The notes beneath the pieces are model-generated. The model searched no databases, was not told the DNA's origin, and saw nothing but the letters and a program-made list of their open reading frames with translations. From a virus, in the IMG/VR virus record IMGVR_UViG_3300047375_001143, positions 1 through 21,825 of that record: a stretch of 21,825 bases of DNA. One strand, written 5' to 3'. Positions within the stretch are counted from its first letter, which is position 1, and every line of letters starts with the position of its first letter. A program made the translations under genes and the position numbers. This document shows, one piece after another, positions 6,429 to 21,825 of the stretch.

Positions 6429-8279
6429 TTATAAATTTACTACTTTACCTTTTATGTCTGTATTAGGGAATCTTACTTCAAAAATCATAGGGTCAATTGA
6501 AGGGTAAATCACATCATTTAATGTAGCCCCACTTAAATCATAGGCATATTGAGAATAGCTTCCACCTACTTTATTATCAAATTCTACATTTTTAACAGTT
6601 TGGACACCTTGTACTTTATCTAAAAGTAAGAATATTTCTTTTTTCTGGATTGGTTCATTGATTTGCCATTTATCCAAATTAAAGTATGATTGTACTTCTG
6701 TTAAACATCTACGTAATACATCGTTATTATTAAAATTAGGTCTAACTGTTATTTCAAATGTTATTCCAACATTAACAAAAAATGCATTTTTAATATTAAT
6801 CGAATCTCCAATTACTCTATAGGTCGAAAGATAAGATTGTAAGTTTTGTTTTAAAGCCGTGGAAGCATTTGTAAGATTACCATTCGCATTTTGACTTAAA
6901 ACGTATAAATCTAATGTTGAAGGTATATTCCCGGGTTGAGTGTTTTGTAATTTTGTTTTTTCAATATAAGCTTTAGCAACTACACCATATCTTGAGGGCA
7001 TTGAAAGTGCTCTAACTAGATAATCATCTGATGTTACGCTACGTAATTGGGTTTGGAATTGGGAAATAGAATTTTGTCTAATTTCTTCAGTTGAATCTCC
7101 ATCACTACCTCCTGTAGCTGCTTCAAGATTGTTTACAGCTAAGGAATTAAATATAATATTAGCTGTAGAATCAGTTAGTCCCGTACTTTGAAAATTAATT
7201 GTACTATTACTTAAAGTAGTTAATTGTCCTGAATTGACGTTAGCTGTTGCTCCACCTCCTGTTAAATATCTTACTGTTAAAGTAGTTTGAGAAGGAGCAA
7301 TACCGTAGGTATTTGTAAAGATAAAGTTTTGGGGAGAATATGCTGCAGTTAATTTATTTTTCTCAAATGGTAAACCTAAACCTACATTATTTGGGTTTGG
7401 GGTTACTTCTTCATCAGCATCACTAGTTTTACCAGCACCAAATTGTATTTGGATTTGATTTTCTGAAATAATTCTAGAGGCAAATCTGCGTTGTACTCTT
7501 TTATTTTTAAGTAAATAGGGAGTATCTCCATCAGAAGATAAATTAGGATCATTTGTATTAGTATTTTTAATAGAATCAAATACCATTTCTTGTCCTAAAT
7601 GATCTACTTCATACCAAATATTCCCATCACTATCTACTATATCTAAAATGCCAATTAAATTATCAGCTGTAATAGTACGAGTGGAAAATTCTTCAGGGGT
7701 TGTAAAACTAAATGTTGTAGAATTGATAGTTGCTGAGATTGCTCTTCTACTTTTCTTTAATAAGAAAAATTGAACATCTGTACCATCTTGTTGATATATT
7801 GAAATTGTAGTAGGATCTTCTGAGGAAGAAACACTAAAATCAACTGGGTCTTCTACTAAAAATTTAATATTAGAATTAGTAGTTGAAGTAATTTGTGAAT
7901 TTTCTCCGATTAATAAAGCATAATCATAATCAGGAGATTGATTTGCTGATGATGATAAAGATGGTATTTGTTGGTAAAAGTCAATAGTAGCTTCGGCTAC
8001 ACCTGTTACTTTAGGTTTGTACCCCATCATATAAGCTAAATCGTATAAATTATTAGCTTCACGAGCATATTGTAAGAATGTTTCTTGGAATTGATTATCT
8101 TGATAAAATGATAAAACGTCACCTATATAGGCAGACATTTCCATAAACATAATACCCGGGGAAGATGGGCTAAAATCATTATAAGTAGTAGGGAAATATG
8201 TTTTAGAAAAGTCAACTAAACTTGTTCTAAGATTATTAAAATCCCTATTAATATATTTTATATCTCTATCTACAGCCAT
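6429..8279 (-). CDS. Baseplate wedge protein, gp6/baseplate J-like
   Basis: 616 aa, close to the 660 residues of T4 gp6. Residues about 5-90 contain the conserved start of the family: YINRDFNNLRTSLVDFSK, P-S-S-P-G-I-M-F-M-E-M-xAYIGDVLSFYQDNQFQET and ANNLYDLAYMMGYKP. Near residues 415-435 the hallmark VTSDDYLVRALSMPSRYG, then VAKAYIEK, is present. A C-terminal part (NFNNNDVLRRCLTEVQSYFNLDKWQINEPI) matches the baseplate J core that contacts neighbouring wedges. In T4, gp6 dimers form the continuous inner ring of the baseplate. The start overlaps the gp25 stop as TAATG, and gp25-gp6 adjacency is conserved in many T4-like phages. Confidence 0.93.
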   Translation of the reverse strand: MAVDRDIKYINRDFNNLRTSLVDFSKTYFPTTYNDFSPSSPGIMFMEMSAYIGDVLSFYQDNQFQETFLQYAREANNLYDLAYMMGYKPKVTGVAEATIDFYQQIPSLSSSANQSPDYDYALLIGENSQITSTTNSNIKFLVEDPVDFSVSSSEDPTTISIYQQDGTDVQFFLLKKSRRAISATINSTTFSFTTPEEFSTRTITADNLIGILDIVDSDGNIWYEVDHLGQEMVFDSIKNTNTNDPNLSSDGDTPYLLKNKRVQRRFASRIISENQIQIQFGAGKTSDADEEVTPNPNNVGLGLPFEKNKLTAAYSPQNFIFTNTYGIAPSQTTLTVRYLTGGGATANVNSGQLTTLSNSTINFQSTGLTDSTANIIFNSLAVNNLEAATGGSDGDSTEEIRQNSISQFQTQLRSVTSDDYLVRALSMPSRYGVVAKAYIEKTKLQNTQPGNIPSTLDLYVLSQNANGNLTNASTALKQNLQSYLSTYRVIGDSINIKNAFFVNVGITFEITVRPNFNNNDVLRRCLTEVQSYFNLDKWQINEPIQKKEIFLLLDKVQGVQTVKNVEFDNKVGGSYSQYAYDLSGATLNDVIYPSIDPMIFEVRFPNTDIKGKVVNL

Positions 8280-8686
8280 TAGTCAAATGTTATATTTAAG
8301 GTATCAGTTATACCTGTATTTTGTATTCTATATTTTAAAATAACGTCTATAATTTGTTCGTCTCCTCGACTTAAAACATCTAGACTTTCAATTATAACTG
8401 TAGGGAAATATGTTCCTAATTGGTTTTGGATATCTTCTTTTAAAAAATCTAAAGTATCATCGGCTAATTGTTGGAATATAAATCTACGTAAATTACCCCC
8501 AAATTCAGGATTTAATGGTCTTTCACCTTGATTAGTTAAAAACCAATTTACTAAATTAGCTTTAACTGCTTCTTGTGTAGTAAAAGTAGTATTAAATACT
8601 GCTTCTCCACTAAAAGGGATACTAACTCCAACCCCAGTAGAGGGTTTAAAGTCAATAGGTGCTATTTTACGAGCATTATAGGCCAT
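8279..8686 (-). CDS. Baseplate wedge protein, gp25-like (GPW/gp25 family)
   Basis: 135 aa, the normal length for this lysozyme-like fold family. Residues about 35-72 carry the diagnostic block: TTQEAVKANLVNWFLTNQGE, then RPLNPEFGGNLRRFIF, including the E-R-P-L-x-P-x-F-G-x-L motif. T4 gp25 and its type VI secretion homologue TssE sit in the inner baseplate and help trigger sheath assembly. Both the start (with the upstream 123-aa gene) and the stop (with gp6) are TAATG overlaps, indicating coupled translation in proportion with gp6. Confidence 0.95.
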   Translation of the reverse strand: MAYNARKIAPIDFKPSTGVGVSIPFSGEAVFNTTFTTQEAVKANLVNWFLTNQGERPLNPEFGGNLRRFIFQQLADDTLDFLKEDIQNQLGTYFPTVIIESLDVLSRGDEQIIDVILKYRIQNTGITDTLNITFD

Positions 8687-15382: not shown

Positions 15383-15586
15383 TTATCCTGCATTAAAAGA
15401 AGCGAGTACTTCACCTACTTTCTGTTTACTTGTCGCTGTTCCTATTAATTCGCAAGTCATCTTACCTTTATTAAAGTATTTTTCACAAAATTCTATTGCT
15501 TTCTTTGGTGTTTTTTCAATTACTACTGCAGAATCATATTCATCATAGTCGTAATCATCAGTTCTTGTTACTAAGTAAATTTTCAT
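15383..15586 (-). CDS. Small hypothetical protein (MKIYLVTRTD)
   Basis: 67 aa: MKIYLVTRTDDYDYDEYDSA, then VVIEKTPKKAIEFCEKYF, ending VGEVLASFNAG. The beta-strand start, the acidic Tyr/Asp cluster and the following helix resemble short phage or host proteins of the 'MKIYLVTRxDxxxYDEYDxxVV' kind, often annotated only as hypothetical. The function is unknown. It starts with the repeated leader. Confidence 0.78.
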   Translation of the reverse strand: MKIYLVTRTDDYDYDEYDSAVVIEKTPKKAIEFCEKYFNKGKMTCELIGTATSKQKVGEVLASFNAG

Positions 15587-15610
15587 CTCTCTTTGGTGTT
15601 AAAGGTTTCT
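15584..15610 (-). promoter_or_regulatory. Repeated translation leader, copy
   Basis: Nearly full-length copy, reading CCTTTAACACC in place of CCTTTAAAACC. Its TAA ends the upstream zinc-ribbon gene (YRNL*). Confidence 0.75.
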
Positions 15611-15817
15611 ATACCCAACATAATCACAAGAAGGACAATGTATATTCTTCTTTGGTGGATTGGATGTTAATGTCATCATAGGTTGACTATCCATTAGTTC
15701 TTCACCACAATTTGGACAAGCGATTCCATTTGGTTGTGGTGTGTTTGCGTATAGAGATGCATTCCAAGCAGTAGCAGTTGTATTATGCTCATCTAATGAT
15801 TTAAGATTCTTTTTCAT
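15599..15817 (-). CDS. Small zinc-ribbon protein
   Basis: 72 aa with two Cys pairs, IACPNCGEEL (residues about 33-42) and IHCPSCDYVGYRNL at the C-terminus, the classic CPxC...CPxC knuckles of a zinc ribbon. The N-terminal 30 residues are polar and variable. Such proteins bind nucleic acid or act as protein adaptors; which applies here is not visible. The last residues (RNL*) are specified by the leader of the next gene. Confidence 0.8.
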   Translation of the reverse strand: MKKNLKSLDEHNTTATAWNASLYANTPQPNGIACPNCGEELMDSQPMMTLTSNPPKKNIHCPSCDYVGYRNL

Positions 15818-15990
15818 CTCTCTTTGGTTTTAAATTTTACATATTCTAAATCTAACTTTGTATCACAATTAGTGCAATACAAATGATAGGTTACATCTTT
15901 GTAATCTTTTGGGTGTTCTTTATTGTCTTTCTCTGTACTATCAGAATAAACAACTAAGTCACTAAATTTATGTTTACATTTAAAAATCAT
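15814..15990 (-). CDS. Small zinc-binding-like protein
   Basis: 58 aa, below many gene-caller cut-offs. Potential metal ligands are Cys5/His7 (FKCKHKFSD) and Cys39/Cys42 (LYCTNCDTKL). The middle is charged (STEKDNKEHPKDYKDV). It ends in KFKTKER, encoded by the leader of the next gene with an ATGA overlap. It lies beside another zinc-ribbon gene, so the two may derive from related modules. Confidence 0.72.
   Translation of the reverse strand: MIFKCKHKFSDLVVYSDSTEKDNKEHPKDYKDVTYHLYCTNCDTKLDLEYVKFKTKER
15815..15834 (-). promoter_or_regulatory. Repeated translation leader, copy
   Basis: Core TTTAAAACC plus AAAGAGAGATG; read in the upstream frame as FKTKER and TGA. Confidence 0.75.
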
Positions 15991-16013
15991 CTATCTTTGG
16001 TGTTAAAGGTTAT
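15988..16013 (-). promoter_or_regulatory. Repeated translation leader, variant copy
   Basis: AACCTTTAACACC followed by AAAGATAGATG, one base different in the purine run. The TAA closes the upstream 119-aa gene (DNL*). Confidence 0.7.
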
Positions 16014-16362
16014 CTATAATATCTCTCATCTTAATAAGAAAGTCTACATCCTCACTTTCACCATACACATTCACAATTCTATCGTGAATCCATCTTAAAT
16101 GGGATTTACCCCTTATTTCTCGTACTGCTGCTTCAAACTTTTCTTTTTCGTTTTGTTTTGCTATAATTCGTGCTTTAAATGATTGATAATTTTTAGGAAT
16201 ACCAAAACCAAATCCTAGAAAAAAACTTGCATACCCCCAACAAATACCTAAACCAATAACTTTTATTTTTTTACCAATCACTTTTACACCAAACAAGTAA
16301 GGTGTTATTGCAAAATCTTCATTATTACTTTTAGTATTCATATATCTTCTAATCATTTTCAT
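16003..16362 (-). CDS. Hypothetical protein with hydrophobic central segment
   Basis: 119 aa. A basic N-terminus is followed by a Gly/Ile/Phe-rich hydrophobic stretch at about residues 35-57 (VIGLGICWGYASFFLGFGFG) that could be a membrane hairpin or a single helix. A charged helical C-terminal half follows (KARIIAKQNEKEKFEAAVRE, ending DIIDNL). Not recognised. Starts with the repeated leader. Confidence 0.75.
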   Translation of the reverse strand: MKMIRRYMNTKSNNEDFAITPYLFGVKVIGKKIKVIGLGICWGYASFFLGFGFGIPKNYQSFKARIIAKQNEKEKFEAAVREIRGKSHLRWIHDRIVNVYGESEDVDFLIKMRDIIDNL

Positions 16363-16490
16363 CTCTCTTTGGTTTTAAAAGTTTCGTCATAAAGACCTAA
16401 ATCTTCATCTCCCTTTATTATTTCAATTAGTAACCGCTTTCGTCTTTTAGGAAATACCCAATTCAAAAACTTGTTGTAATGCTTTTTCAT
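16359..16490 (-). CDS. Very small basic protein ending ETFKTKER
   Basis: 43 aa: MKKHYNKFLNWVFPKRRKRL, then LIEIIKGDEDLGLYD and the leader-encoded ETFKTKER. A basic N-terminal half precedes an acidic segment. The ATG carries the repeated leader and the stop forms ATGA with the next gene, which is the main reason to call it. Function unknown. Confidence 0.65.
   Translation of the reverse strand: MKKHYNKFLNWVFPKRRKRLLIEIIKGDEDLGLYDETFKTKER
16360..16386 (-). promoter_or_regulatory. Repeated translation leader, copy
   Basis: GAAACTTTTAAAACC then AAAGAGAGATG; encodes ETFKTKER of the upstream gene. Confidence 0.75.
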
Positions 16491-16505
16491 CTCTCTTTGG
16501 TGTTA
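16488..16505 (-). promoter_or_regulatory. Repeated translation leader, short copy
   Basis: TAACACC plus AAAGAGAGATG, fused upstream to an AATAAACACCATA element that recurs at 20.9 and 21.2 kb. Confidence 0.65.
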
Positions 16506-16537
16506 CTTTATGGTGTTTATTGAGTGGTTATAAAACA

Positions 16538-16672
16538 TTAACAACCTATTTCTTCTCTAATCTTTTTAATTTTCGCTAATGCTTTTTCTAAATCATTTCT
16601 ATCCATTAAATGATAAAGTCTTTTTACAATTTCTTGTAGTTCTTCAAATTCTTTTTCTATATCCATAATCAT
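16538..16672 (-). CDS. Very small coiled-coil protein
   Basis: 44 aa: MIMDIEKEFEELQEIVKRLY, then HLMDRNDLEKALAKIKKIRE and EIGC. It is an all-helical, heptad-rich peptide of unknown function. The start has the purine-rich AAAGAGAG leader; a second ATG two codons in is an alternative. Downstream of the possible promoter at 16.7 kb. Confidence 0.65.
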   Translation of the reverse strand: MIMDIEKEFEELQEIVKRLYHLMDRNDLEKALAKIKKIREEIGC

Positions 16673-16690
16673 CTCTCTTTTGTTTTAAAA
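16670..16690 (-). promoter_or_regulatory. Repeated translation leader, copy
   Basis: TTTTAAAACAAAAGAGAG before the ATG at 16672; this copy lacks the CC of the core. Confidence 0.65.
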
Positions 16691-16709
16691 AACGTTCTTA
16701 TTTACTGTG

Positions 16710-16741
16710 TAAATATACAAAAAATATTTTACTTATCCCAC
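16710..16741 (-). promoter_or_regulatory. Weak Bacteroidota-like promoter
   Basis: TATATTTAC (16717-16710 plus next base) preceded by TTTTTTG matches the -7 region of the four good promoters. The -33 position reads TGGG/GTGG rather than TTTG. It overlaps the end of the 55-aa gene and precedes the gene at 16672. Confidence 0.4.
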
Positions 16742-16896
16742 CCTTCTATTGCAATCTCCAAAGCAAGTCTTGGATAAGAATATGGCCGTTCTTGCATTGT
16801 TTTAAGAGCCTCAAAAATGATTTCTACCCTCATATCAGATTCAAAAACCATTTCTACAACTCTTGCAAATTCTTCATCTATTTTATTATAACCCAT
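16729..16896 (-). CDS. Small acidic helical hypothetical protein
   Basis: 55 aa: MGYNKIDEEFARVVEMVFES, then DMRVEIIFEALKTMQERPYS and YPRLALEIAIEGWDK. The pattern looks like a compact helical bundle; the family is not recognised. It starts 4 nt after the preceding gene's stop, with AATTTAAAATT before the ATG instead of the repeated leader. Confidence 0.72.
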   Translation of the reverse strand: MGYNKIDEEFARVVEMVFESDMRVEIIFEALKTMQERPYSYPRLALEIAIEGWDK

Positions 16897-16900
16897 AATT

Positions 16901-17098
16901 TTAATTTAAATGAATTTTATTTATATTTTCCATAAACTCGCTATATTCCGCGTTAAAATCTTCAAGCATATCACTTAGTGCAGCGTTGTATCCTCGCATG
17001 TATACGCGCTCATCTTCCGTGTATTCCCGCGATTCCATCAGCATCTCTATGCGGTTATCTTCGAGTGTTTCCTGAAGAAGTTTTTTAAAATTAACCAT
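16901..17098 (-). CDS. Small acidic helical hypothetical protein
   Basis: 65 aa from the ATG at 17098 (MVNFKKLLQETLEDNRIEML); six codons further upstream there is another ATG, but AAAGAAAGACAAA just before 17098 is the better ribosome site. The protein is Glu/Met-rich (ESREYTEDERVYMRGYNAAL, SDMLEDFNAEYSEFMENINK) and probably entirely helical. It overlaps the end of the 53-aa membrane-protein gene by a few bases. No function recognised. Confidence 0.72.
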   Translation of the reverse strand: MVNFKKLLQETLEDNRIEMLMESREYTEDERVYMRGYNAALSDMLEDFNAEYSEFMENINKIHLN

Positions 17099-17252
17099 TT
17101 TGTCTTTCTTTATCATTTAAACGAAGTTGCTCTAAACATAGACTAAATACTACAGCATAAAATAAACATGCTGGCCCACCCGTAATAAGAGTAAGAATAA
17201 GTGTACCAATAGCTGTAATGTGTAAAAATGGGTTTTTAAATCTGATTTTCAT
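17091..17252 (-). CDS. Small single-pass membrane protein
   Basis: 53 aa. It begins MKIRFKNPFLHITAIGTLIL and continues TLITGGPACLFYAVVFSLCL, giving one or two hydrophobic segments around a Gly-Gly-Pro turn, then the charged end EQLRLNDKERQNG. Preceded by a clear TTTG-N20-TATATTTA promoter inside the duplicated module. The C-terminal KER is again contributed by the purine-rich ribosome site of the following gene. Function unknown. Confidence 0.7.
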   Translation of the reverse strand: MKIRFKNPFLHITAIGTLILTLITGGPACLFYAVVFSLCLEQLRLNDKERQNG

Positions 17253-17326
17253 AACCTTTATTTCTTTAATACCTAAATATACAAAATATTTTTTAGGGAG
17301 CCAAATTTTTACTTAAATATTACTGA
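17250..17326. repeat. 77-bp promoter module, copy 1
   Basis: Matches 17954-18030 at 73 of 77 positions in direct orientation. It spans the ATG of the membrane-protein gene, the promoter, the stop and the last codons (VIFK) of the lipoprotein gene. Confidence 0.85.
17274..17305 (-). promoter_or_regulatory. Bacteroidota-type promoter, copy in duplicated module
   Basis: TTTG (17305-17302), 20-nt spacer ending in TTTTG, TATATTTA (17281-17274). It would start transcription shortly before the 53-aa membrane-protein ATG. Confidence 0.75.
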
Positions 17327-17956
17327 AATTTGTTGTTCTCTAACTTCTCTAAAACCAATATCATTGTTAAAGAGTACTTTCATAAAAATAGTAGCAGTAT
17401 CTCCTACCATCTCATCATCCAAAAATATTTGTTTTCTAGGTTGATAAGTGTGTTTACTATAGGTTCCTAGCAAAGTAGGGGCATACGGGCAATCCCAACA
17501 AAAGAACTTAGGAATTTGGTACCCTACAATATTAAGTGGTGGGTGGATATTAGCGATATCTTCCAAAGTATACGTGAGATTACCAACAGCAATCGGTTGG
17601 GTATAGGATTGATCGCTAAACCAACTTAACACCGAATACATTGGTGAAGTCCATTGTAAAGTATCAAATACAACCCAATAATCGCTATCAAATTGTGTTT
17701 CAATGAGAGGGACTTTATTTATTACGTATTGAGGATCAAGTTCATCTAGTTGACCTTGAATTGTAAAATAAGTCAAACCACTATACTTTACCCTCCAATA
17801 ACCATCAATAGAATCAAAATATGAACCCGGTGATACTAGTGTATCAATAAAAAATTGGGCATCACAAAAACCATCTAAACATGGGTATGGCTTTGAAGGT
17901 GATGTCTCACAAGAAACCAATAAAACAATACTAAAAAATAAAACTAATTTTTTCAT
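17309..17956 (-). CDS. Phage-encoded lipoprotein
   Basis: 215 aa. Signal peptide MKKLVLFFSIVLLVSC with a lipobox (L13-V14-S15-C16) marks a lipoprotein to be lipidated at Cys16 and placed in the inner or outer membrane. The mature part is rich in aromatic residues and beta-like (GYWRVKYSGLTYFTIQGQLD, ETQFDSDYWVVFDTLQW) with a C-W-D-C pair near residue 155. No family is recognised. It has its own promoter in a 77-bp module that is repeated directly after its end. Lipoproteins made from early phage genes often block superinfection; this role is inference here. Confidence 0.82.
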   Translation of the reverse strand: MKKLVLFFSIVLLVSCETSPSKPYPCLDGFCDAQFFIDTLVSPGSYFDSIDGYWRVKYSGLTYFTIQGQLDELDPQYVINKVPLIETQFDSDYWVVFDTLQWTSPMYSVLSWFSDQSYTQPIAVGNLTYTLEDIANIHPPLNIVGYQIPKFFCWDCPYAPTLLGTYSKHTYQPRKQIFLDDEMVGDTATIFMKVLFNNDIGFREVREQQISVIFK

Positions 17957-18030
17957 AACCTTTACTTCTTTAATACTTAAATATACAAAATATTTTTTAG
18001 GGAACCAAATTTTTACTCAAATATTACTGA
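17954..18030. repeat. 77-bp promoter module, copy 2
   Basis: Counterpart of 17250-17326. Here the module lies between the lipoprotein ATG and the stop of the SprT-like gene, so the part that codes VIFK in copy 1 is non-coding in copy 2. Confidence 0.85.
17978..18009 (-). promoter_or_regulatory. Bacteroidota-type promoter for the lipoprotein gene
   Basis: TTTG (18009-18006), 20-nt spacer, TATATTTA (17985-17978); predicted leader of roughly 15 nt to the ATG at 17956. Confidence 0.75.
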
Positions 18031-18031
18031 G

Positions 18032-18640
18032 TTAAGCTACCTGTGGGTTATTTTGTAAGTAGTTTTCTTCTTCTTCTCTCATTTTTGCTCTAAATGGAAA
18101 ACCTTGTTCTTCAGCTACTTCAGCATACCACATAAAAATATGTAAATATATCTGTTCTGTATTAGAGTGTTTAAATGGTTTTCCTTTACTATCTGTAACT
18201 TTATAATCTTCCTTATTTATTTGTTGGATAATTGCCTTTTTCTCCCCTTCATATTCTATAATAAAAGTATTAGTATTAAAATCGGCATCAATAAATAATT
18301 CCCATACATTTTTAATATATATTGGACGTTCAATTAAATTATGTTGAAATATTTTGTTAGCTATTTCTTTAAAATTATGACCATGAGGATTTTCCTCAGG
18401 GAAATATTCATTAACATAGGCATGAGTTACTTCATGTTCTATTACATATTGTTCAAATGGGGTATTTACTACAAATTCCGATAATTTAATTCGAATAGTC
18501 CCATCTTTCAAATAACTACACATTCCATAATCAGATTTACACCTTTTAGAAACCCAAAAATCTAATTTTAGTTTAGGTAATTTTAAGACTTTTGAAAGTA
18601 ATTTACTAGCTTCTTCAACTTTAATTTCTTGTTTTTTCAT
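18032..18640 (-). CDS. SprT-like zinc metalloprotease
   Basis: 202 aa from the ATG at 18640 (MKKQEIKVEEASKLLSKVLK). A longer frame starts from a GTG at 18712 but would add an unlikely hydrophobic N-terminus. The zinc motif H-E-V-T-H occurs at residues about 69-73 in YVIEHEVTHAYVNEYF, followed by NPHGHNFKEIANKI (H-G-H-x-F), as in SprT/Spartan-like proteases, where the third ligand comes from this segment. Cys residues (KRCKSDYGMCSYL) lie before the active site. The C-terminal half is unlike SprT and may bind DNA or protein. Such phage proteases may act on DNA-bound proteins; the target is unknown. Confidence 0.82.
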   Translation of the reverse strand: MKKQEIKVEEASKLLSKVLKLPKLKLDFWVSKRCKSDYGMCSYLKDGTIRIKLSEFVVNTPFEQYVIEHEVTHAYVNEYFPEENPHGHNFKEIANKIFQHNLIERPIYIKNVWELFIDADFNTNTFIIEYEGEKKAIIQQINKEDYKVTDSKGKPFKHSNTEQIYLHIFMWYAEVAEEQGFPFRAKMREEEENYLQNNPQVA

Positions 18641-18690
18641 AACCCGAGAACTTAATCCTTTAAATATTAAAACCTCAATAAATACGTATA

Positions 18691-18711
18691 TACACCCCAC
18701 AAGGGGGTACA
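18691..18711 (-). other. Hairpin between DUF932 and SprT-like genes
   Basis: TGTACCCC-CTTGT-GGGGTGTA forms an 8-pair stem including two G-U pairs. No T-tract follows, so it may be a processing or stability element rather than a terminator. Confidence 0.5.
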
Positions 18712-18717
18712 CTCCCC

Positions 18718-19533
18718 TTAGGAAGCGTACTCAAGTGCTAATTTGTATAGATCTTGGTTAATCTTTGTATCTTGCTTGAAATTCTTGATCTTACGTGCCT
18801 TACGTGGCTTACCCGCAACCCCAAACGTTTCGAACATTCCGTGAATTAGTTTTTCCTGAACTACGTTATACACGCTCCACATATCGTTGCCTTGATCTTC
18901 ATTGCGGGTAGGATTTAATAATTCCTGGATATTATCGATATCGTAGGTAGAAATATGTTCTTTAGGAAGTCTTGTACGTAATGCTTCTTTAGCAAACTCT
19001 ACTTTCTCCTTTTCACTTAATTGCTTGGCTTTGAGCTTATTCATACACTCGATAGTGAGCGGGAGCTTTTCAACCATTTCGGAAATTACGGTTTTTAACT
19101 CTTCCAAATCATATCCCATGTGACGGATCTTCATATTGGCAAATTCGGCATCTGCTACTACCAATCCATTGGAGCATACTAGGCGGTAAAGACCTGCTTG
19201 AAAACGGAATGCGTTCTTTCCATCGTGCGAATTCGTCATTAACACTCTGGGCATCACGGTATCGCCATCTTTTCCTTCGATTTGCAAATTATCATTCCCG
19301 AAAATAATCATGTGTTGTTGGTAACCTTGATTTTTACGGGCTTTGACTTGCTTTGCATCTACTACTCCCCAACCCATAGAAGCCATATCATCAATTACGG
19401 TTTCGGTTGGAATATGCACGTAGTGCTTTGAAGTTGTTGTTTTATCTGCATTTTGAGTAAAAACAGATGGAGCGATTTTACGAATTTGATCCTTTGTCAA
19501 AAACTCGTTGGTGTTGTCGTTTGAATACATCAT
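18718..19533 (-). CDS. DUF932-family phage/plasmid protein
   Basis: 271 aa, a usual length for DUF932. Characteristic blocks are present: ETVIDDMASMGWGVVDAKQV near the N-terminus, the central PRVLMTNSHDGKNAFRFQAG and LYRLVCSNGLVVA, and a C-terminal DMWSVYNVVQEKLIHG. These proteins are widespread on phages and plasmids; their activity is not established. A second ATG follows the first directly and either could start. It has its own promoter and is less AT-biased than its neighbours, with more G+C at third positions by eye, which may reflect separate acquisition. Confidence 0.87.
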   Translation of the reverse strand: MMYSNDNTNEFLTKDQIRKIAPSVFTQNADKTTTSKHYVHIPTETVIDDMASMGWGVVDAKQVKARKNQGYQQHMIIFGNDNLQIEGKDGDTVMPRVLMTNSHDGKNAFRFQAGLYRLVCSNGLVVADAEFANMKIRHMGYDLEELKTVISEMVEKLPLTIECMNKLKAKQLSEKEKVEFAKEALRTRLPKEHISTYDIDNIQELLNPTRNEDQGNDMWSVYNVVQEKLIHGMFETFGVAGKPRKARKIKNFKQDTKINQDLYKLALEYAS

Positions 19534-19574
19534 AACTCTAATTAATTTAATGGGCTCTGCCCTTATTTACCCTG

Positions 19575-19606
19575 TAAATATACGAAACATTTCCTGGGGA
19601 GCCAAA
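19575..19606 (-). promoter_or_regulatory. Bacteroidota-type promoter for DUF932 gene
   Basis: TTTG (19606-19603), 20-nt spacer ending TTTCG, TATATTTA (19582-19575). It shares TTTGGCTCCC with the copy at 17.3 kb. It lies just past the end of the PID-CTERM-like gene. Confidence 0.75.
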
Positions 19607-19608
19607 TT

Positions 19609-19833
19609 TTACTGCGCAGGAAGTGTATTTTTTTCTTTATTTTGGGAGAACCCTATTAAAATTCCAGCTAATAATAAGAATAATATTAACTGCCAATTAT
19701 CCATAGGGACAGGTGGGTTATTACACCAAGGTGGTGGGTTAGGACCAAAACAAGCAGGATTTGGAGGACCATTTGGGCCTCCTTGAGCAAATCCTTTAAA
19801 ACTTAATATTATTAAGATTAGAATTTTTTTCAT
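19609..19833 (-). CDS. Small secreted/membrane protein with PID-CTERM-like end
   Basis: 74 aa. A signal peptide (MKKILILIILSFKGFAQ, cleavage after FAQ likely) is followed by a Gly/Pro/Asn segment (GGPNGPPNPACFGPNPPPWC) with two Cys. A PVPMDNW motif then leads into a hydrophobic helix (LILFLLLAGILIGF) and a short charged tail (SQNKEKN). The order signal peptide, Pro-rich spacer, P-[IM]-D, helix with LLxAG, basic tail is that of Bacteroidota PID-CTERM proteins. This phage copy has PMD rather than PID. It starts 2 nt after the upstream gene. Function unknown. Confidence 0.78.
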   Translation of the reverse strand: MKKILILIILSFKGFAQGGPNGPPNPACFGPNPPPWCNNPPVPMDNWQLILFLLLAGILIGFSQNKEKNTLPAQ

Positions 19834-19834
19834 T

Positions 19835-19963
19835 TTAAGTTAAGTATATATTAGGATGAACATACATATATGCTATGGCTAAAAAACTTAACCCCAAACA
19901 TACTAATGTAAATGTCCCTATTTGAAATAAAATACGTCTTTCTTTGGTACTTAATGTTGTCAT
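19835..19963 (-). CDS. Very small membrane protein
   Basis: 42 aa: MTTLSTKERRILFQIGTFTL, then VCLGLSFLAIAYMYVHPNIY and LT. A charged N-terminus precedes a single transmembrane helix. It starts in an ATGA overlap with the 50-aa gene's stop and ends just before the PID-CTERM-like gene, so these two membrane products are made from one message. No family recognised. Confidence 0.68.
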   Translation of the reverse strand: MTTLSTKERRILFQIGTFTLVCLGLSFLAIAYMYVHPNIYLT

Positions 19964-20112
19964 CTCTCTTTGGTTTTATAGTGTTGTAAAATATCTGCAA
20001 TTGATACTTTCTTACCTTCAGCATTGGCATAATACATCACATACTTGTTAGATGTAGGTTCGGTGCTATAGTGCTTGATAAACCATTCAAGGAATAATTC
20101 TAATTCACTCAT
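19960..20112 (-). CDS. Very small protein ending HYKTKER
   Basis: 50 aa: MSELELFLEWFIKHYSTEPT, then SNKYVMYYANAEGKKVSIAD and ILQHYKTKER. A helical start precedes a short beta-like core. The last six residues and the stop are encoded by the leader of the following gene. Unknown function. Confidence 0.68.
   Translation of the reverse strand: MSELELFLEWFIKHYSTEPTSNKYVMYYANAEGKKVSIADILQHYKTKER
19961..19978 (-). promoter_or_regulatory. Repeated translation leader, copy
   Basis: TATAAAACC then AAAGAGAGATG; read upstream as YKTKER and TGA. Confidence 0.72.
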
Positions 20113-20135
20113 CTCCAATTAGTGTTAAAGGTTTA
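20110..20135 (-). promoter_or_regulatory. Repeated translation leader, divergent copy
   Basis: AAACCTTTAACACTAATT followed by GGAGATG: the 5' half is conserved, while the purine run is replaced by a conventional GGAG. Confidence 0.6.
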
Positions 20136-20244
20136 AAATAGAGTAAGGTGTGAGGACTTTCTTTATTCCAAACAATGGGTGGTTCTCCTCAAGCGTTTGC
20201 AACCGCTCTTTACATATCATACCAACAAGTTTTGCCTTACTCAT
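20125..20244 (-). CDS. Very small basic hypothetical protein
   Basis: 39 aa: MSKAKLVGMICKERLQTLEE, then NHPLFGIKKVLTPYSILNL. It starts inside the last codons of the upstream 68-aa gene with a leader copy in front, and its TAA lies in the next leader (LNL*). Size and lack of homology make this a weaker call, but leader context and spacing match its neighbours. Confidence 0.55.
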   Translation of the reverse strand: MSKAKLVGMICKERLQTLEENHPLFGIKKVLTPYSILNL

Positions 20245-20443
20245 CTCTCTTTTGTATTAGTGCCTCTTCATTATCAGGATAAATACCAAACACCTCATTA
20301 ATTGTTTCTTTGGTATATCCATCAAGTTCTAATGCTAACTTCATTGCATCTCTAATGGCGTAAGGATAATGACACGTTTTAGTATCTATTGTTACTATTG
20401 GAGATTGATTTTCGCTTTGATTTCTTTCAATAATTATTTTCAT
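20237..20443 (-). CDS. Small hypothetical protein
   Basis: 68 aa: MKIIIERNQSENQSPIVTID, then TKTCHYPYAIRDAMKLALEL and DGYTKETINEVFGIYPDNEE. A beta hairpin followed by two helices is suggested. It reads through the next gene's leader in the third frame, ending QKRDE with TAA just past the next ATG. Family unknown. Confidence 0.75.
   Translation of the reverse strand: MKIIIERNQSENQSPIVTIDTKTCHYPYAIRDAMKLALELDGYTKETINEVFGIYPDNEEALIQKRDE
20242..20260 (-). promoter_or_regulatory. Repeated translation leader, copy
   Basis: CTAATACAAAAGAGAGATG; this copy is coding in the third frame (LIQKRDE). Confidence 0.65.
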
Positions 20444-20467
20444 CTCTCTTTGGTTTTAAAGGTTTCT
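20441..20467 (-). promoter_or_regulatory. Repeated translation leader, full copy
   Basis: AGAAACCTTTAAAACC followed by AAAGAGAGATG; overlaps the upstream stop (TAG) by 2 nt but is otherwise non-coding here. Confidence 0.78.
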
Positions 20468-20753
20468 ATTCACCGATATATTGCGTGTCAAAATCATCTC
20501 CATCATTAACCCTTTTTAATTTCTCTTCATCAAGATTAATTAAATCTCTTAAGTTCTTTAATTTAGGTGAGTTTAATTCGGATTTGTGAATTTCAACATC
20601 TATATGACCTGAACCATCACCATCAATTCTTATGGGTAATAATCTATTTGCTCCAATATCCCCACCATACTGAATTTTTCTTAGTGCGATTAGGAAGTCT
20701 TTTAAGTCTTCATCTGAAATTGCAGTTATTCTTAAGTCTATAAATTTTCTCAT
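20466..20753 (-). CDS. Hypothetical phage protein with DGDGSG loop
   Basis: 95 aa. MRKFIDLRITAISDEDLKDF opens a beta-alpha unit; IRIDGDGSGHIDVEIHKSEL lies in the middle, and the C-terminus is acidic (DGDDFDTQYIGE). The D-G-D-G-S-G loop looks like an EF-hand calcium loop but has Glu one position early and no flanking helix. A turn between strands, as in other small phage proteins with a 'DGDG' loop, is more likely. Function unknown. Confidence 0.75.
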   Translation of the reverse strand: MRKFIDLRITAISDEDLKDFLIALRKIQYGGDIGANRLLPIRIDGDGSGHIDVEIHKSELNSPKLKNLRDLINLDEEKLKRVNDGDDFDTQYIGE

Positions 20754-20770
20754 CTCTCTTTGGTTTTAAA
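20751..20770 (-). promoter_or_regulatory. Repeated translation leader, copy
   Basis: TTTAAAACC then AAAGAGAGATG, placed right after the AACCCCCAATAA end of the upstream 45-aa gene. Confidence 0.75.
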
Positions 20771-20773
20771 TTG

Positions 20774-20911
20774 TTATTGGGGGTTATGTGCATCATAAAT
20801 CACAACCTTATCAAATTTTAATCCACCCCAATACCTTATTGTTACTGCTTTATTTTTGTAGCAAAATTCTACGCTTGGATACTTGTTTTTAAAATCTAAG
20901 TTTATTTTCAT
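20774..20911 (-). CDS. Very small hypothetical protein
   Basis: 45 aa: MKINLDFKNKYPSVEFCYKN, then KAVTIRYWGGLKFDKVVIYD and AHNPQ. Alternating hydrophobic residues suggest a small beta-sheet. Starts after a second conserved leader type (see 20921-20957). The stop lies inside a CCCCAATAA string that recurs after other genes. Confidence 0.65.
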   Translation of the reverse strand: MKINLDFKNKYPSVEFCYKNKAVTIRYWGGLKFDKVVIYDAHNPQ

Positions 20912-20920
20912 ATCCGTATT

Positions 20921-20957
20921 TTTATCTCAAACTTATTGTATGGTGTTTATTGGGGGT
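20921..20957 (-). repeat. Second intergenic repeat, copy 1
   Basis: On the minus strand: CCCCCAATAAACACCATACA, then ATAAGTTTGAGATAAA. It closely matches 21158-21194. It lies between the 65-aa gene and the 45-aa gene; parts recur near 16.5 and 15.4 kb. Confidence 0.75.
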
Positions 20958-21154
20958 TACCACCCATAAGAGTTATACATTTTTATTATATCCTCTTCGG
21001 TTATAGTTGGGCCTTCCATAAATCCACCGTAACCAAACATTTTGTGTTCATAGTGAAATTTTTGGGATTTAGATAATTTATCCCACCACTTAATAGCTTT
21101 ATTACGTGTGGTAACACCACCTAAATTTAATTTATTCTCTTCTCTCATAAACAT
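20957..21154 (-). CDS. Small hypothetical protein rich in aromatic residues
   Basis: 65 aa: MFMREENKLNLGGVTTRNKA, then IKWWDKLSKSQKFHYEHKMF and GYGGFMEGPTITEEDIIKMY. A WWDKLSKSQK helix, a Gly-rich turn and an ITEEDIIKMY helix ending NSYGW give the look of a short DNA- or protein-binding phage protein; 'WWxxLSxxQK...ITEEDIIKMY' is a pattern I associate with small Bacteroidota phage proteins. A second ATG two codons in is an alternative start. Confidence 0.75.
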   Translation of the reverse strand: MFMREENKLNLGGVTTRNKAIKWWDKLSKSQKFHYEHKMFGYGGFMEGPTITEEDIIKMYNSYGW

Positions 21155-21157
21155 AAT

Positions 21158-21194
21158 TTTATCTTAAACTAATTGTAGGGTGTTTATTGGGGTT
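21158..21194 (-). repeat. Second intergenic repeat, copy 2
   Basis: CAACCCCAATAAACACCCTA followed by CAATTAGTTTAAGATAAA on the minus strand, directly before the 65-aa gene. Confidence 0.75.
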
Positions 21195-21202
21195 GTAGGC
21201 AA

Positions 21203-21511
21203 TTAATACAAGCACTCCGAATAAAGTTCAGTTCCGTTTCCAAAACTTGCAATCACTTGTCCTTGTACTCTTGCTATTTTCATCGCTTCTTTTCTATCTA
21301 CAAATCTATTTTTTGTTGTTAAAAACCCTTGTTTTGCATTTTGCAAACACTTTACTCTCCATTCATCACTATCTCCAACTAATGTCCTTATACGACTAAT
21401 TTGAAAGAAGCAATCTCCATGTCTTAATCCTAAATAAATACCGTTGTAAACATCGTTTACATTAGTTATCTCTATTGCGCTACATACTATCTTTTCTTCT
21501 CTTTCACTCAT
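21203..21511 (-). CDS. Conserved phage hypothetical protein (GFxTxxxRFVDRxEA family)
   Basis: 102 aa. The C-terminal half contains QGFLTTKNRFVDRKEAMKIA and GQVIASF, then ELYSECLY. This is a pattern found in many phage hypothetical proteins, where GF-x-T-x-x-x-R-F-V-x-R-x-E-A is followed some 20 residues later by LxSExLY/W. The N-terminus (IVCSAIEITNVNDVYNGIYL, GLRHGDCFFQISRI) also fits that family, which usually has an H-x-D/C element there. Biochemical role unknown. Starts with a full leader copy and overlaps the upstream gene by ATGA. Confidence 0.82.
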   Translation of the reverse strand: MSEREEKIVCSAIEITNVNDVYNGIYLGLRHGDCFFQISRIRTLVGDSDEWRVKCLQNAKQGFLTTKNRFVDRKEAMKIARVQGQVIASFGNGTELYSECLY

Positions 21512-21798
21512 CTCTCTTTGGTTTTAAAGGTTTCTAATATATGTAGAGCAAAGTCCGCCATCATATCATAATGGTAATCAGCAAAGATTTGTCCTTCACC
21601 ACGATTAGACTGAACAAACTCATCAGTCATAGATAGAATCTTATCGTGTGTCATTGCCTCTTTCTCAAGCATTGATTGTGCTTTTGCTAAGTCAACAATA
21701 TACTCAACTGCCAACGATTCAAGCAATCTTCCTTCTTCGGAAAGTTCTCTTGAGCGTTGAATTGCTTGGTCAATTAACTCTTGCATTGGTGTTTTCAT
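21508..21798 (-). CDS. Hypothetical protein ending ETFKTKER
   Basis: 96 aa, helical and acidic: MKTPMQELIDQAIQRSRELS, then EEGRLLESLAVEYIVDLAKA and FADYHYDMMADFALHILETF. 'MKTPMQELIDxA' and a late 'FxxxYY/YHY' are seen in small helical phage proteins of Bacteroidota, always without function. The last eight residues and stop come from the next gene's leader. It is the first gene inside the window; its own promoter is not visible. Confidence 0.78.
   Translation of the reverse strand: MKTPMQELIDQAIQRSRELSEEGRLLESLAVEYIVDLAKAQSMLEKEAMTHDKILSMTDEFVQSNRGEGQIFADYHYDMMADFALHILETFKTKER
21509..21535 (-). promoter_or_regulatory. Repeated translation leader, full copy
   Basis: Identical over its full length to the copy at 20441-20467. 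It encodes ETFKTKER and the TGA of the upstream gene. Confidence 0.78.
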
Positions 21799-21813
21799 CT
21801 CTCTTTACCTTTA
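21796..21813 (-). promoter_or_regulatory. Repeated translation leader, divergent copy
   Basis: TAAAGGTAAAGAGAGATG: the purine run is conserved, the 5' half is not. Confidence 0.6.
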
Positions 21814-21825
21814 TTATTACCCTAT

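Follow-up and report, generated by a model that had tools for sequence, protein, structure and literature searches.

Cluster K mycobacteriophages carry Start-Associated Sequences (SAS), a short repeat at the starts of many unrelated non-structural genes, which is present in 11–19 copies per genome, nearly always in one orientation, is practically absent from the host and has an unproven function (PMC3203893). SAS (GGGATAGGAGCCC) contains an AGGAG Shine–Dalgarno (SD) core and typically lies 3–7 bp before the start codon (PMC3203893). According to work cited in PMC3029335, short conserved boundary sequences have been proposed to guide homologous recombination in phage mosaicism; such a sequence is missing from most mosaic joints (PMC3029335), and the lambdoid nin-region genes are tightly packed and ATGA-linked (PMC8022706). 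Here we describe a start cassette, a repeated leader that abuts the ATG of small genes in IMG/VR virus record IMGVR_UViG_3300047375_001143, a linear piece, 21.8 kb long, of an uncultured phage (“the window”, meaning the whole stretch analysed) with all relevant genes on the minus strand.

Like SAS, the cassette is found at the starts of many genes in one orientation and sometimes contains the upstream stop codon; unlike SAS, it has no SD, directly abuts the ATG, differs in sequence as well as in host group, and marks the places where genes are exchanged. Its consensus does not match GGGATAGGAGCCC with the AGGAG core. With the boundary sequences and the nin genes it shares short homology at gene joints and tight packing with ATGA overlaps, but here one cassette sequence, taking in the entire start region, recurs at many joints in many phages. 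As proposed for boundary sequences, homology between phages starts and stops at the cassette, and the neighbours differ across it. By analogy, the cassette would thus work like SAS and the lambdoid boundary sequences combined, being by sequence a member of neither. No description of this element was found in the literature, the search being confined to open-access papers. Taking all lines together, we think it fairly probable that the cassette is an SD-independent translation start module and also a joint for single-gene exchange between phages.

Thirteen minus-strand genes of the window begin directly after the leader: 11 after the exact form AAAGAGAGATG (ATG at 15586, 15817, 16362, 16490, 16672, 19963, 20244, 20443, 20753, 21511, and 21798) and two after variants (AAAGATAGATG at 15990 and ACTAATTGGAGATG at 20112). 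The thirteen start cassettes of the initial annotation are thereby confirmed, with none in randomised windows. AAAGAGAG occurs 12 times on the minus strand, followed in 11 of these by ATG, and not once on the plus strand. A 26-position matrix trained on copies from outside the window finds 12 window sites versus 0 in 30 Markov-shuffled windows; the thirteenth site, beyond these 12, is 21798 near the window end, with a hybrid leader (AATAATAAAGGTAAAGAGAG). An exact copy of the full 27-mer AGAAACCTTTAAAACCAAAGAGAGATG is found at just two sites, 20443 and 21511, and one with a single mismatch at 15586; the other sites share chiefly the stretch between approximately −16 and −1. The upstream gene ends at TGA at four joints (21511, 19963, 16362, 15817) and at TAA at three (20112, 15990, 15586). 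No two of the downstream proteins share a BLASTP family, in line with the unrelated genes of the initial annotation. The two arrays and their cassettes are as follows.

19835–21820, minus strand: gene array 1; seven of nine genes cassette-headed; the last gene (19835–19963) adjoins the conserved backbone (DUF932 gene, 18718–19533)
21795–21820, minus strand: cassette with hybrid leader (AATAATAAAGGT plus AAAGAGAG, then ATGA); gene 21508–21798, 96 aa, apparently chimaeric, MKTPMQEL family
21508–21533, minus strand: cassette, full consensus; upstream gene ends inside (ETFKTKER, then TGA overlapping ATG); gene 21203–21511
20750–20775, minus strand: cassette; gene 20466–20753
20440–20465, minus strand: cassette, full consensus; gene 20237–20443, whose homologue in locus L242 also has the cassette
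20241–20266, minus strand: cassette, 3′ half alone conserved; gene 20125–20244, protein 100% identical in loci L011 and L250
20109–20134, minus strand: variant cassette (AAACCTTTAACACTAATTGGAG, then ATGA); upstream gene stops at the cassette TAA; gene 19960–20112
19960–19985, minus strand: cassette; upstream gene ends inside (KTKER, then stop); gene 19835–19963, small protein, closes array 1
15383–16694, minus strand: gene array 2; six cassette-headed genes in succession
16669–16694, minus strand: cassette; gene 16538–16672
16487–16512, minus strand: cassette, TAACACC form, with repeat AATAAACACCATAAA before it; gene 16359–16490
16359–16384, minus strand: cassette; upstream gene ends inside (ETFKTKER, then stop); gene 16003–16362
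15987–16012, minus strand: cassette, AAAGATAG variant; upstream gene stops at TAA (−15); gene 15814–15990
15814–15839, minus strand: cassette; upstream gene ends inside (KFKTKER, then stop); gene 15599–15817, weak zinc-ribbon similarity
15583–15608, minus strand: cassette; upstream gene stops at the cassette TAA (RNL, then stop); gene 15383–15586

The consensus is AAACCTTTAA[A/C]ACCAAAGAGAG followed at once by ATGA. Positions −16 to +4 are very highly conserved; conservation weakens towards −22 and is nil farther upstream, in an alignment whose positions −9 to +3 were predetermined by the search. Among 384 non-redundant copies in 155 loci (323 loci scanned), 382 have ATG and 379 have A at +4, a fixed base additional to those of the initial annotation, and none of the 89 loci with at least two copies has them on both strands. 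When ACCAAAGAGAG was searched without a start codon in 223 loci, ATG came immediately next in 186 of 191 occurrences, and the spacing to the ATG is therefore fixed. High matrix scores are frequent in the real loci, and the reversed sequence gave no match at equal score. Read in the frame of the ATG, the leader has a TAA stop at position −15; shifted by one frame, it encodes ETF[K/N]TKER up to a TGA overlapping the ATG (ATGA). Genes were called throughout by a simple script rather than a trained gene finder. An upstream open reading frame (ORF) could be identified for 143 copies: 63 stop at the overlapping TGA and 41 at the internal TAA, approximately 27 stop before the leader is reached, and a few run through it in the third frame. 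Position, fixed spacing, stop/start overlap and distribution of the cassette can all be read directly from these sequences.

The second frame raises the alternative of protein conservation, in which ETF[K/N]TKER is a C-terminal tag on the upstream proteins and the start signal is incidental. Most of the 63 ORFs in the TGA class have such a tail, and the MKTPMQEL family often ends in YYNKTFNTKER, a possible origin of the cassette sequence; the 41 ORFs of the TAA class, however, use another frame with the nucleotides equally conserved, and approximately 27 end before the cassette. Even in the TAA class the A at +4 is constant (39/41). The same nucleotides are kept whichever frame is used, so what is constrained is the nucleotide sequence rather than a protein tail; the stop-frame usage largely refutes the tag as the source of conservation, and we give this alternative next to no credence. 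Variant cores ending in GAGAA before the ATG (e.g., ACACCAAAGAGAA, 25 copies) are found in loci L250, L288, L289, and L314 (records G071, G075, G064, and G066), which suggests lineage-specific drift of the cassette.

The leader does not start translation by SD pairing. Its best pairing with the 16S tail reaches −4.5 kcal/mol, versus −2.3 ± 1.6 in shuffled sequence and −13.4 with a genuine SD as control, and the pairing bases directly abut the ATG, leaving no proper SD distance. The 16S tail sequence in this calculation is an assumed one. Energy and geometry together rule SD pairing out, bearing out the initial annotation, which had described the purine run as not a spaced classical Shine–Dalgarno. 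Special RNA structure was likewise rejected, as folding differs little between cassette starts and other window starts, being slightly weaker at the former (mean −3.2 vs. −4.6 kcal/mol). An Rfam scan of the window returned tRNA as the sole RNA family match.

Non-cassette genes of the same contigs (n = 1,099) have an A peak at −14 to −11, with SD words in 4.7% versus 7.4% in shuffles, and their start regions match the signature described for Bacteroidota. In Flavobacterium johnsoniae, A−12, A−13, A−6, and A−3 raise initiation, and the stretch from −14 to −11 lies near ribosomal protein S1 and drives initiation (Baez et al., PMC6847099). The cassette likewise has an A-run, with A at −14, −13, and −11 (99%) and A or C at −12, as well as A at −6, no SD and an ATG; unlike the SD-less regions of F. 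johnsoniae (PMC6847099), it is a fixed 22-nt sequence and has G, not A, at −3. Binding of S1 to the AA[A/C]A run at −14 to −11, an idea from the initial annotation, is plausible by this analogy. The simplest reading is that the cassette would be a fixed SD-less start region, one that ribosomes presumably use efficiently.

Gene exchange at the cassette is supported by four comparison lines, which share part of their data. The left ends of DNA alignments fall at cassettes in 569 of 1776 cases against 48 ± 7 expected (approximately 12-fold), and the right ends in 205 of 1766 against 40 ± 6 (approximately 5-fold). Where a cassette-headed gene is common to two contigs, its upstream neighbour differs at 86% of boundaries, versus 40% for the remaining joints of these islands. 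Counted per gene family (≤100 aa), 77% of the pairs at cassette joints have different upstream neighbours, versus 45% of the pairs at other nearby joints (p = 1e-4); for the downstream neighbour the shares are 94% versus 44% (p = 4e-8). The family of gene 19835–19963, present in more than 20 contigs, has 22 distinct upstream neighbour families.

Single segments show the same bounds. Window positions 20259–20122 are 98% identical in DNA to L011 and L250, beginning at one leader and ending at the next; 16012–15842 is 97% identical to L225, again from one leader to the next; and 16505–16356 is 88% identical to L227 with both ends at cassettes. Gene and leader are often inherited together, and breaks of synteny and ends of homology gather at the cassette; both can be read directly from the sequences. 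The proposal that the leader is a recombination seam, first made in the initial annotation, is strongly supported by these alignment ends, neighbour changes and segment bounds. The breakpoint enrichment marks where homology changes; the recombination enzymes may use the repeat itself. Integron gene cassettes are marked by an attC site with inverted repeats and by an integrase; inspection of the leader showed no inverted repeat, and the Rfam scan gave just the tRNA, no search aimed at an integrase having been made.

Gene 21508–21798 looks like a chimaera of two sources: before 21658 it is 95–97% identical to one set of contigs, and after 21651 up to 93% identical to another. In its family (MKTPMQEL...LEKEKEV...YYNKTFNTKER), which includes 24 homologous genes elsewhere, the N- and C-terminal parts are exchangeable and join near a purine-rich GAGAAAGAG stretch similar to the cassette core.

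Six of the cassette-headed genes (21798, 20443, 20244, 19963, 16490, and 15990) have homologues in other phages, and among the matches listed the cassette is present wherever the start aligns. In the short 19963 family, 11 of 12 have the cassette within 3–6 nt of where the start is extrapolated to lie. For the window's backbone genes, close relatives (the nearest at 70–94% protein identity) have orthologues whose leaders are ordinary. These relatives are mostly without the cassette and without the cassette-headed genes; the contrary pattern named in the initial annotation, relatives that keep the genes without the motif, was looked for, and the motif-less close backbone relatives lack the genes as well.

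The reading of a start module that is also an exchange joint has competitors, of which the first is a translation start signal alone, the leader being kept for ribosome entry and the shuffling having other causes, with the seam as a by-product. Function by itself accounts for the fixed ATG spacing, the A at +4, the Bacteroidota-type register and the lack of homogenisation within genomes. It does not account for neighbour changes and alignment ends that cluster at cassettes even in comparison with non-cassette joints of the same islands; furthermore, most of the remaining genes in these phages start from different leaders, and translation therefore does not in general require the exact 22-mer. 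We regard this alternative as possible but doubtful.

Several observations weigh against the combined reading of start module and exchange joint. The linkage of gene and leader is not strict, 29 of the 58 cassette families with members in at least two loci also having non-cassette copies. Cassette copies from the same genome resemble one another no more than copies from different genomes do; within-genome gene conversion was rejected on this ground, and the result fits a shared pool without homogenisation inside genomes. Practically every copy has G at −3, against the preference for A; in F. johnsoniae, A−3G lowered one reporter by 70%, A−3 being favoured but not strict (PMC6847099). The contigs, all of them metagenome assemblies, were retrieved by exact motif, so at least one copy from each such contig is biased. 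Finally, the synteny breaks could arise in a hypervariable region under selection against broken genes. On the combined reading, it would be recombination acting on the sequence, rather than selection sparing such joints, that gathers the breaks.

The origin of all carriers in metagenome contigs also prompts the question of an assembly artefact, that is, of false joins at short repeats, and no cassette was found in the isolate phages searched. Ordered arrays, on the other hand, are found in long contigs, one of 63.6 kb having 20 copies and one of 166.6 kb having 11; the genes are intact, and identical gene order recurs across contigs from separate samples. The final k-mers usual in assemblers are, moreover, longer than the 22–26 nt of the repeat. 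An artefact of this kind is hardly credible.

In IMG/VR, the exact 20-mer is found in 55 stretches and the exact 21-mer in at least 120; the cassette contigs range from 4 to 212 kb with at most 20 copies each. A genome collection of 84,980 prokaryote species contains the exact 21-mer once, on a 3.8-kb contig of a metagenome-assembled genome, and the cassette is therefore not a host feature. The carriers appear diverse, though many are fragments: among the cassette contigs examined, most lack a match to the gp6 of the window. The closest isolates to the window backbone are Flavobacterium phages, the nearest being Flavobacterium phage immuto (gp6 47.5% identical), whose DUF932, phosphohydrolase and baseplate genes follow the same order as in the window. 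In the 41.8 kb of immuto examined there is no cassette; a promoter-like repeat (TATATTTAGGTATCAATAATTAAAAC), related to an element in the window described below, stands upstream of many small genes. The window carries, on one fragment, baseplate genes, the small-gene region, a tRNA-Met and the DUF932 gene. For its small proteins, nothing in Pfam scored above the curated cut-off, and the PHROGs that matched are all of unknown function. The baseplate genes are:

6429–8279: gp6-like baseplate gene
8279–8686: gp25-like baseplate gene

A further alternative is that a phage-altered ribosome, for example with a phage-encoded bS21, reads the cassette and so favours phage over host messages. Genes for bS21 are present in cassette contigs G006, G018, and G037 (loci L247, L246, and L245) and absent from all backbone relatives examined that are without the cassette; the bS21 of G006 and G018 matches 7jil, which we take to be the F. 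johnsoniae ribosome. In G018 and G006, the bS21 gene adjoins DnaJ-like and PhoH-like genes, so named from reading the sequences. Phage bS21 was considered because it has been proposed to redirect Bacteroidota ribosomes (Chen et al., PMC9723584; PMC9976891), in passages which, for Chen et al., name no mRNA signature. However, only 3 of approximately 40 cassette contigs encode it, none being present in several contigs of 50–104 kb, and the exact cassette is absent at the bS21 genes themselves. The absence is weak evidence because the contigs are fragments; as a general cassette reader, phage bS21 was nevertheless rejected on these numbers, and we hold the altered ribosome to be very unlikely. 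A phage factor of some other kind, which the initial annotation had also suggested, is conceivable. A broader version, in which the cassette would be a plug-in joint of dual-frame stop and start, read by a phage-specific initiation factor or an altered ribosome, so that the genes join a common regulon and are exchangeable ready-to-express between unrelated phages, seems unlikely as well, if less so.

Lastly, the cassette might be a transcription signal, a promoter for each gene giving leaderless or very short-leader transcripts. The TTTAAA it contains is readable as a weak −10-like box, and other genes in the same phage group are preceded by a repeated element that resembles a promoter (TTCGTATATTTA). 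A promoter would, however, hardly hold its distance to the ATG exact to the base, with −8 to −1 and +4 conserved and nothing conserved upstream of −22, and most copies overlap the upstream gene; we judge it highly improbable.

Other repeated leaders are found nearby and in relatives. A second one, AAATAAAGGTT directly before ATG, is present at 17246–17310 and 17945–18014 of the window and in L144, L146–L154, L191, and L352, often preceded by the TTCGTATATTTA element and a TTTGGCT[C/A]CC box. A third repeat, AATAAACACC[A/C]TACAAT[A/T]AGTTT[A/G]AGATAAAA, at 20905–20962 and 21146–21205 and in L228 and L229, stands before two array genes without a cassette, and the first part of it is also found ahead of some cassettes, such as the one at 16490. 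Outside the window, a conserved mini-ORF of 8–9 codons (ATGAGTCGTTGCACTCCTCACCG, encoding MSRCTPHR[K] and a stop) has 30 copies, usually with a cassette-type leader (AAAGAGAG or AAAGAGAA), in L017, L031, L279, L287, L288, L293, L296, L313, L323, L009, and further IMG/VR loci L353–L371. On its 3′ side lies a hairpin with compensatory forms (GCAAA-TAAA-TTTGC, GATAAA-TAAA-TTTATC, and GATAAA-CAAG-TTTATC), and then the TTATG of various genes; mini-ORF and hairpin are possibly a leader-peptide or RNA control element.

Returning to the favoured reading, the cassette would be a fixed start module of Bacteroidota-type phages, borne by individual small genes within arrays. Each gene would bring its own ribosome entry signal, consisting of the A-run at −14 to −11, A−6 and weakly structured purines up to the ATG, and the stop of the preceding gene would be absorbed in two of three frames, by TAA at −15 and by TGA within ATGA; such a gene could therefore be joined to many others with its expression kept. 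Single genes with their leader would be gained, lost and exchanged at these joints, most likely via homologous recombination over the shared sequence, because the same 22–26 bases are present at many joints in many phages.

Whether phage mosaics come from recombination at short boundary sequences or from random joining followed by selection is a long-standing dispute, and with one defined sequence at many joints in many phages the question becomes testable. The cassette would also be a natural, strictly conserved start signal in a setting where the bacterial group does without Shine–Dalgarno pairing, and may therefore serve as a probe for how such ribosomes choose their start codons.

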